Of a stretch of DNA of 64,000 bases, positions 4-2,119 are shown in pieces; within the stretch, counting starts at the first letter, position 1, and each line of letters opens with the position of its first letter. Below the pieces are notes generated by a model that saw nothing but the letters and a program-made list of their open reading frames with translations, was not told the DNA's origin and searched no databases. The position numbers and the translations under genes are program-made. The DNA lies in NCBI RefSeq assembly GCF_000513855.1, contig NZ_KI911318.1, positions 931,327 through 995,326 of the forward strand, in the 5' to 3' direction. The stretch comes from Desulfurococcus amylolyticus Z-533. GTDB lineage: Archaea > Thermoproteota > Thermoprotei_A > Sulfolobales > Desulfurococcaceae.

Positions 4-1532
4 GAATACAATAGAAAGAATTGAAAGCGTTCACTCATAACTAGTAAAGCCCTGTTCCCATTACGATCGAATACAATAGAAAGAATTGAAAGACTGGGGG
101 AGGCGGGGGCGATAGCATTGAAATCCCAAAGAGGAATACAATAGAAAGAATTGAAAGTAACTTTAAAGTTAAACTTTACCATAAACCCACTTTTACATTT
201 GAATACAATAGAAAGAATTGAAAGGCTCCCTCACCATTCCTGATCGCATCTGCTATTGAAACGAATACAATAGAAAGAATTGAAAGTATCACCACCTCAC
301 CACCGTGGCTATCAAATTCTGTCTCCCAGAATACAATAGAAAGAATTGAAAGAAGAAATACAGCCTTGATATGTGGAAAAAAGACATGCTTGAGAGAATA
401 CAATAGAAAGAATTGAAAGTATAGTAATTACTACGGAAACGTTGGTATCTGTTTCTATGAGAATACAATAGAAAGAATTGAAAGTTTATATAGATAACTG
501 TGTACCTCTGCTTTGTAGTAGCATCCGTGAAGAATACAATAGAAAGAATTGAAAGCGGCTTGAGTCTCAATTTGTTGATTCTCCAATTTCTCTAAGTATG
601 AATACAATAGAAAGAATTGAAAGGCTGAGTCAGCATGTTCACGAACTCATCCCTCGAGATGCGGAATACAATAGAAAGAATTGAAAGGACTCATACACTA
701 GCGCTAAGTGAGAGACGTCGCACGCTAGAATACAATAGAAAGAATTGAAAGACTCATACTACCTCACTCGGACTCTGGGGCTGTCTCTGGGGCGAAGAAT
801 ACAATAGAAAGAATTGAAAGCAATTATACTAATTAAGAGTACCCGAGCCTGGGTTTATAAATCCGAATACAATAGAAAGAATTGAAAGTATCCGCGCCTG
901 AGGGTATTCTATCGATGCCTTTCTCCAACAGAATACAATAGAAAGAATTGAAAGATTGAACAACCCGCCCCCACCGACTACGGGACCGAAGTATTCAGAA
1001 TACAATAGAAAGAATTGAAAGGTAGCTCCCTGTCCACCAGATATATGTAATGCTGTGGATCTAGAATACAATAGAAAGAATTGAAAGCTCATTGATCACA
1101 CCCTATCGGGGTGAACGAGCTGTCTTCTGAATACAATAGAAAGAATTGAAGAAAATAACCCCGATCGCAACCATTATTTTTTAGCCCCCGAATACAATAG
1201 AAAGAATTGAAAGTCCGCTAAACCTGGTGGAAGTGGATGAGTGATGACGGTGAACGTGACAATAGTCACGTACTCGATGATAAAATACTAGAATGTATGA
1301 GTGTCTACGGATTATACATATGTAAAGGCGACGTGGTACAGGTATTTCCACGTAGTAGATCGCTGGCAAGCGTCATTGGGAGGGTCAAGGCGTTAACGTC
1401 ATCATCAATAGTGCTGGAGAACGATGAAAACACGGTAGCTATACGCATTAGCGAAATCAAGATGATCCGCATAGCCAAGTTTAAACGCATATGATTTTTT
1501 ACTCAATCGAATACAATAGAAAGAATTGAAGA
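4..1532 (+). CRISPR. CRISPR array, leader-distal end (20 repeats)
   Basis: The 24-bp repeat runs GAATACAATAGA to ATTGAAAG. Copies start at 4, 69, 134, 201, 263, 329, 396, 461, 532, 600, 664, 728, 797, 865, 931, 998, 1064, 1129, 1190 and 1509. The first 19 enclose 18 unique spacers of about 37-47 bp. The last interval (1214-1508) is 295 bp and holds a small gene. The repeat ends in ATTGAAAG, the usual crRNA 5' handle in archaea, so transcription should run left to right and the leader lies left of the window. Copies at 1129 and 1509 end in GAAGA instead of GAAAG, as expected for old trailer-end repeats. No cas gene is present in the window. Confidence 0.97.
1237..1494 (+). CDS. Small LSm/Sm-like protein encoded inside the CRISPR array
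   Basis: This 85-residue ORF lies wholly between the repeats at 1190 and 1509. An ATG start sits 6 nt after a GGTGG ribosome-binding site at 1226, and a T6 run follows the stop, like an archaeal terminator. Residues about 32-80 have a small beta-barrel pattern: a VVQVF strand, then IGRVKAL, SIVLEN and AIRISEIKMIRI. This resembles the Sm1/Sm2 strands of LSm proteins, but it is a pattern judgement, not an alignment. The N-terminus is acidic and hydrophilic. If the repeats are cut by Cas6, the mRNA would be released from the CRISPR transcript with an 8-nt handle plus a 23-nt leader. It may instead be a captured host or viral gene fragment. Confidence 0.6.
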   Translation: MSDDGERDNSHVLDDKILECMSVYGLYICKGDVVQVFPRSRSLASVIGRVKALTSSSIVLENDENTVAIRISEIKMIRIAKFKRI

Positions 1533-1693
1533 GATAGGGTTGTGGGGAGGGGTCAGCTCTATTTCTTTTAAATATTTGTTTAAGATGGGAATAATTGAGG
1601 GTTATTTCACATGAGGTGGTGTTATTTAGGTGTGTGATATTGTGGTGTTGGAATATAATTGTGAGGGTGGCTGGATGTTTGTATGGTGTTGTC
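1533..1693. other. G+T-rich spacer beyond the array; possible IS200/IS605-type end
   Basis: No gene is visible. The plus strand is strikingly rich in G and T and poor in C. At 1544-1562 it reads GGGGAGGGGTCAGCTCTAT, nearly identical (one indel) to 51041-51059 in the decayed island. GGGGAGGAGGTCAG-like motifs are, from memory, typical of IS200/IS605-family right ends in archaea, so this may be an insertion relic next to the last CRISPR repeat. Confidence 0.4.
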
Positions 1694-2119
1694 TTAGTTT
1701 AAATATAGGGTGAGGGTGTCTCTGTGTTCTTCGAGGAATATGTTTCTCTTTCCTTGTAGGATTATGAGTGTTTGATCTCCGGTGATAACTATGTAGTCTA
1801 TGAGTGTGTAGCCTGGTGTGACTATGGTTATGTAGTGCCCGGTGAATAAGCTTGTGGCTTTTACCAGGTGGTCCCCTAGATCTATCTCCTCTACTGTATT
1901 ATAGCATTCCCTGAGTTCTTTCACTGCATCATGGTAGATGAACACTATTTTCCTTCTTGAGCCATAGACTTCCTTGACCTCGGCTCTCTTGAACCCCTTG
2001 ACGCTTATGATTCGAGGACGTATCTCTATTGAGTAGTTCCAGCCACTTAACAAGAGGTACTCGCCTGCCCGTTTGACTTCTAGGCATCCATCCCTATACC
2101 TTATGCTATACATCACCAA
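1694..2119 (-). CDS. Hypothetical protein, 141 aa
   Basis: Not recognised. The protein is beta-strand rich, with many alternating hydrophobic stretches such as HYITIVTPGY and YIVITGDQTLIIL, no cysteine pair and no membrane segment. The start MVMYSIRY follows the short divergent region shared with the gene at 2215. It is transcribed toward the CRISPR array and ends 161 bp from it. Codon usage is like its neighbours (ATA, AGG, CTT). Confidence 0.6.
   Translation of the reverse strand: MVMYSIRYRDGCLEVKRAGEYLLLSGWNYSIEIRPRIISVKGFKRAEVKEVYGSRRKIVFIYHDAVKELRECYNTVEEIDLGDHLVKATSLFTGHYITIVTPGYTLIDYIVITGDQTLIILQGKRNIFLEEHRDTLTLYLN

Follow-up and report, generated by a model that had tools for sequence, protein, structure and literature searches.

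Archaeal viruses carry CRISPR mini-arrays and stand-alone repeats (PMC6858448), and the mini-array repeat of the adnavirus Chiyouvirus is identical to that of its host (PMC10848311). Viral genomes also have solitary repeat units, which follow promoters and show enrichment in the vicinity of acr genes (PMC10651486). The intervals of a CRISPR array are regarded as memory that is short and passive; here we describe an array of the heat-loving archaeon Desulfurococcus amylolyticus Z-533 in which a complete gene, very probably of viral type, lies between the repeats. Like the virus-borne units of SPV1/SPV2, ATV and the Chiyouviridae, the locus links viral-type sequence to host-type repeats without cas genes, but it belongs to a chromosomal array and a whole gene takes the place of a spacer. 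With the solitary repeat units of Racr type it shares a single repeat beside a small gene; unlike these, the unit here is only a putative one and sits in a host array. CreTA, the CRISPR-regulated toxin-antitoxin, is likewise bounded by CRISPR-like repeats, but its products are RNAs and it depends on a functional Cascade, whereas here the element is a protein gene and the cas genes tested are missing.

The window, that is, the whole stretch of 64,000 nucleotides analysed, opens inside a CRISPR array with a 24-nt repeat (GAATACAATAGAAAGAATTGAAAG). The full array (G000:C1:930724-932858; L011 17398-19532) holds 29 clear repeat copies, 20 of them within the window, and its ordinary spacers measure 35-47 bp. 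Nowhere else in the whole 1.307-Mb, 99.8%-complete genome does this repeat occur. The features are:

L011:17398, repeat 1 of the array; the leader lies further upstream, outside the window
4-1213, plus strand, window part of the CRISPR array with repeats 10-28, by repeat mapping
1129-1152, plus strand, repeat 27, a variant with a GAAGA end, identical to repeat 29
1153-1189, plus strand, interval 27 (37 bp) with a terminator-like T6 at 1177-1182
1190-1213, plus strand, repeat 28, canonical, just 5' of the gene
1226-1230, plus strand, GGTGG, a Shine-Dalgarno-like site 6 nt ahead of the ATG
1237-1494, plus strand, 85-codon ORF from ATG to TGA, for a predicted small beta-barrel protein (LSm/Hfq-like fold), very probably of virus type
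1495-1500, plus strand, T6 immediately after the TGA, terminator-like
1509-1532, plus strand, repeat 29, a variant with a GAAGA end
1578-1601, plus strand, decayed repeat 30 (15/24), 45 bp past repeat 29 (shuffled P 0.0007)
1651-1674, plus strand, possible decayed repeat 31 (14/24), 49 bp further on, with weaker evidence

Repeat mapping placed an interval of 295 bp (1214-1508) between the repeats at 1190-1213 and 1509-1532, as the preliminary description had stated, and the intact 85-codon ORF with its GGTGG site and T6 end, also reported there, was recovered at 1237-1494. The interval fails the 35-47 bp length of an ordinary CRISPR spacer and is free of decayed repeats: its highest-scoring stretch matches at 12/24, below the shuffled mean of 13.4. 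Beyond that description, we noted the T6 in the preceding 37-bp spacer, the GA-ending repeats 27 and 29, and the decayed repeats past repeat 29. The two GA-ending copies are identical, and no other of the 29 has GA in place of AG at its end; repeat 28, which they flank, is canonical. On the coding strand of the array, T runs of at least five occur just twice; both are T6, and together they bracket repeat 28 and the gene. The first of them, possibly the tail of an upstream viral gene, ends 54 nt before the ATG, and repeat 28 fills that stretch.

We oriented the array by the GAAAG 3' end of its repeat, by a match of its leader to the leader of a G028 array, from a different genus in the family (77% over 79 nt), and by repeat decay at the far end. 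The gene runs in the same orientation. Since decayed repeats follow repeat 29, the 295-bp interval still belongs to the old end of the array and does not lie past it. This old end is eroding, with one and perhaps two decayed repeats at normal spacing after repeat 29. It is adjoined by the gene of a 141-aa protein (1694-2119, minus strand), which is conserved in five relatives and had no Pfam or PADLOC match. The repeat itself is identical to repeats of another genus in the family (G028, G035) and absent from both same-genus genomes, in which the genes neighbouring the array are conserved without an array at that place. Judged from these comparisons, the array does not seem native to the genus and was probably gained horizontally, or else lost in the sister genomes. 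Among its spacers, spacer 14 has a 16-base match to the window.

The cas genes were sought genome-wide by family searches for Cas1, Cas6 and RAMP proteins. Models of Cas1, Cas6 (two models) and RAMP found no match in the 99.8%-complete genome, and each of them matched in control genomes. TIGR01877 finds Cas6 in three of four other-genus relatives with similar repeats; since the fourth also has arrays, the Cas6 negative is strong, not absolute. The sole cas-related gene found encodes a Csa3/CARF regulator and lies beside the array leader (L011:16404-17111). As the genome is almost complete but gave no matches to Cas1, Cas6 or RAMP, the 29-repeat array looks like an orphan array.

These searches bear on the model, drawn from the preliminary description, of a resident host gene that has its mRNA freed by Cas6 at the flanking repeats and whose product acts on crRNAs. 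The gene does lie in array orientation between two repeats, and the predicted fold of its product is of an RNA-binding type. However, such a release is unlikely, since the searches detected no processing enzyme and a T6 precedes the gene: ending 54 nt upstream of the ATG, this run would tend to terminate transcripts of the array before they reach the gene, and T6 runs stand on both sides of the unit. The same gene was searched for in the arrays of related genomes and was not found. Taken as a whole, we regard this model as very improbable.

A 90-codon open frame occurs in about 6% of shuffled 295-mers, so that ORF length alone is weak evidence and the coding claim rests on homology (36% identity, E 6.9e-8). 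By codon usage the ORF frame beats the other five frames, yet it stays below typical host genes. Its GC3 of 0.46 is host-like, compared with 0.30 for the viral copy described below. An Rfam search returned nothing, and PADLOC gave no match.

Using the 85-aa protein together with its 86-aa relative, AlphaFold2 predicted, for the monomer, a small beta-barrel (pLDDT 82) that is five-stranded and strongly bent (strands 33-38, 46-53, 57-61, 66-70 and 74-79). No helix precedes the barrel in the model, and the N-terminus is of low confidence. Its best fold matches among solved structures in the PDB are nearly all Hfq/Sm proteins (E about 0.03, TM about 0.5), which is what it has in common with LSm/Hfq proteins. 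It differs from them in lacking an N-terminal helix in the model and a PF01423 (LSM) match: that model recognises three LSm genes at other loci of the host but not the 85-aa protein, for which no Pfam family at all, LSM included, was found at E<=10. Since the fold matches are Hfq/Sm and the Pfam test for LSM failed, 'LSm-like fold' is a fair term for this predicted protein and 'LSm protein' is not. Of the earlier comparison with LSm RNA-binding proteins, the small barrel with Hfq/Sm as nearest fold thus stands, and membership of the LSm family by sequence falls.

The sole clear sequence relative is an 86-aa ORF on contig G030:C365 (5827-6087, minus strand), from the same family Desulfurococcaceae, with 36% identity across 66 aa at E 6.9e-8; of 61 genomes searched, one gave this match. 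A search of 229 genomes of the class again yielded no other convincing match. A 31-residue match in a Bdellovibrionaceae MAG (L010) was judged to be due to chance. No relatives were detected in phage records, nor in IMG/VR with the 85-aa protein, a two-row profile or the viral copy, and the neighbour genes of the 86-aa relative likewise found none in IMG/VR. This distribution speaks to the possibility that the gene in the interval stems from the host or a plasmid, has no relation to CRISPR, and came to lie between repeats when a decaying array was rearranged, with no virus-borne repeat involved. The host-like GC3 and the decaying array end agree with such an origin; but the gene is missing in the same-genus genomes and in all others searched except for the virus-like contig, and we consider the explanation quite unlikely.

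The contig that carries the relative (L013) is 9.1 kb long and likely of viral nature. Short ORFs are tightly packed on one strand, ribbon-helix-helix proteins are encoded, and a glycosyltransferase has 42 matches in the phage collection, all of them from viruses of Sulfolobales; the matches listed are rudiviruses, at 25-28% identity. A 130-aa helical protein of this contig, submitted to a fold search as a capsid protein, gave a low-confidence model and no useful match. No capsid gene was identified on the contig, so 'virus-like' is the correct word. It may represent integrated DNA next to an array of the chromosome and not a virion genome.

This contig closes (9027-9112) with GTAACAATACATAAAGAATTGAAAG and, after a 42-bp spacer, the first 19 nt of another repeat; no recognisable leader lies upstream. 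The 3' 13-mer of its repeat (AAAGAATTGAAAG) is identical to that of the window repeat (0 of 200 shuffles), while the overall match of 18/24 is not significant alone (P 0.16). Since the contig ends in repeats and the window gene lies in an array, both known members of the gene family are physically linked to CRISPR repeats. In addition, a T7 run on the contig ends 56 nt before the ATG of the relative, compared with 54 nt for the T6 in the window. The array spacers showed short chance matches at most to the contig and to the neighbourhood, and no IMG/VR contig contained the repeat or either of two further forms of it.

A repeat and a small gene between terminators would also fit an anti-CRISPR unit of the solitary-repeat type, recombined into the array, with repeat 28 as a virus-borne repeat mimic and the barrel protein as an anti-CRISPR or regulator. 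That the relative's contig carries repeats too is in keeping with this. But the repeat-spacer-repeat there lies 3 kb from the 86-aa ORF and is not a solitary repeat beside the gene, PADLOC gave no match, and by the models tested no Cas target is left in the genome. We therefore hold an anti-CRISPR unit to be improbable.

A second line of evidence for a viral source came from the viral-model fold search, in which the second match was the betalipothrixvirus protein A7WKM4 (Foldseek E 1.2e-3), with a TM of 0.68 and an rmsd of 1.9 A over 70 columns when compared with the 85-aa model. By species, length and sequence pattern, A7WKM4 is most likely ORF79a, which is conserved in 13 lipothrixvirus records and adjoins a helicase gene in those viewed. 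The ORF79a family (AFV3, AFV6-9, SIFV; PHROG 12842) resembles the 85-aa protein as a short, single-domain small barrel of crenarchaeal viruses, and both have the pattern GD-V...I.I..I..I. Identity is 21-25%, however, and the 85-aa protein has an extra N-terminal stretch; its gene lies between CRISPR repeats, whereas that of ORF79a lies beside a helicase gene. Aligned with hhalign, the ORF79a profile matched the 85-aa family profile at E 2.6e-4, with a probability of only 42%, and the PHROG 12842 profile did not match the 85-aa protein at E<=1. An eight-sequence profile also picked up the N-terminal barrels of GatD in 450-aa proteins, which means that part of the profile signal is at the level of fold. 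Given these GatD barrels and the 42% probability, the lipothrixvirus link could be fold-level.

We read the interval as a viral-type gene captured in an orphan array. The preliminary description had raised a captured viral gene as an alternative, and both the relative on the virus-like contig and the betalipothrixvirus fold match now support it, so that a viral type is highly probable. The source would be a ligamenvirus-like (rudivirus/lipothrixvirus-type) virus of Desulfurococcaceae with a small beta-barrel gene, whose predicted product probably binds nucleic acids. In this proposal the gene would have arrived when a virus-borne, stand-alone CRISPR repeat recombined with the host array at its old end, bringing along the T-run terminators on either side; that repeat would now be repeat 28. 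The GA-type repeats 27 and 29 around a canonical repeat 28, the two T6 runs and the spacing of 54 versus 56 nt are most simply read as marks of a single incoming piece, made up of a terminator, repeat 28, the gene and a second terminator.

The main competing route is aberrant spacer acquisition, by which a former adaptation machinery would have integrated a viral fragment of excessive length (295 bp, or 356 bp with repeat 28) and duplicated the GA-type terminal repeat. Repeats 27 and 29, identical to each other and unique among the 29, are what duplication of a target repeat would give, and the content of the interval looks viral. But all other intervals measure 35-47 bp, the canonical repeat 28 inside the segment is left unexplained, and no Cas1 remains. 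Moreover, ribosome site and terminator mark the ends of the fragment almost exactly, which a random cut would be unlikely to produce. We consider this route unlikely. Of the single routes we favour entry with a virus-borne repeat, at chances that we judge about even.

Our full reading, that a ligamenvirus-type gene with a virus-borne repeat recombined into an orphan array and is now a passenger there, is evenly poised. Against the captured-gene reading count the host-like GC3, the IMG/VR negatives and the lack of an identified capsid gene on the contig of the relative; in addition, the two-base repeat variant could be due to chance or gene conversion. The gene would now reside as an intact passenger between T6 terminators, in an array whose genome no longer has Cas1, Cas6 or type III RAMP genes by the models used. 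Its present state, as a relic or a resident, is most likely that of such a passenger or of a lightly used nucleic-acid-binding protein. If expressed, it would yield a short transcript from near repeat 28 to the T6, not a Cas6-processed array RNA.

Together, the gene and its sole close relative, both near CRISPR repeats, point to an exchange of genes between viruses and host arrays by way of repeats. Virus-borne repeats, already linked to interviral conflict and anti-CRISPR, would thereby also serve as handles for recombination. A more far-reaching and improbable idea is that viruses of Desulfurococcaceae carry a cassette of one or more CRISPR repeats and a small LSm-like RNA-binding protein that acts on or against CRISPR RNA, the repeat recombining the cassette into host arrays. 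If this were true, the host array would be a landing site for viral genes. Since an intact gene is found in an array whose cas genes are apparently gone, orphan arrays are worth screening for cargo genes. As a side observation, betalipothrixvirus ORF79a (L057:4883-5122 and relatives; PHROG 12842) matches, by fold, a small beta-barrel of the LSm/SH3 type.
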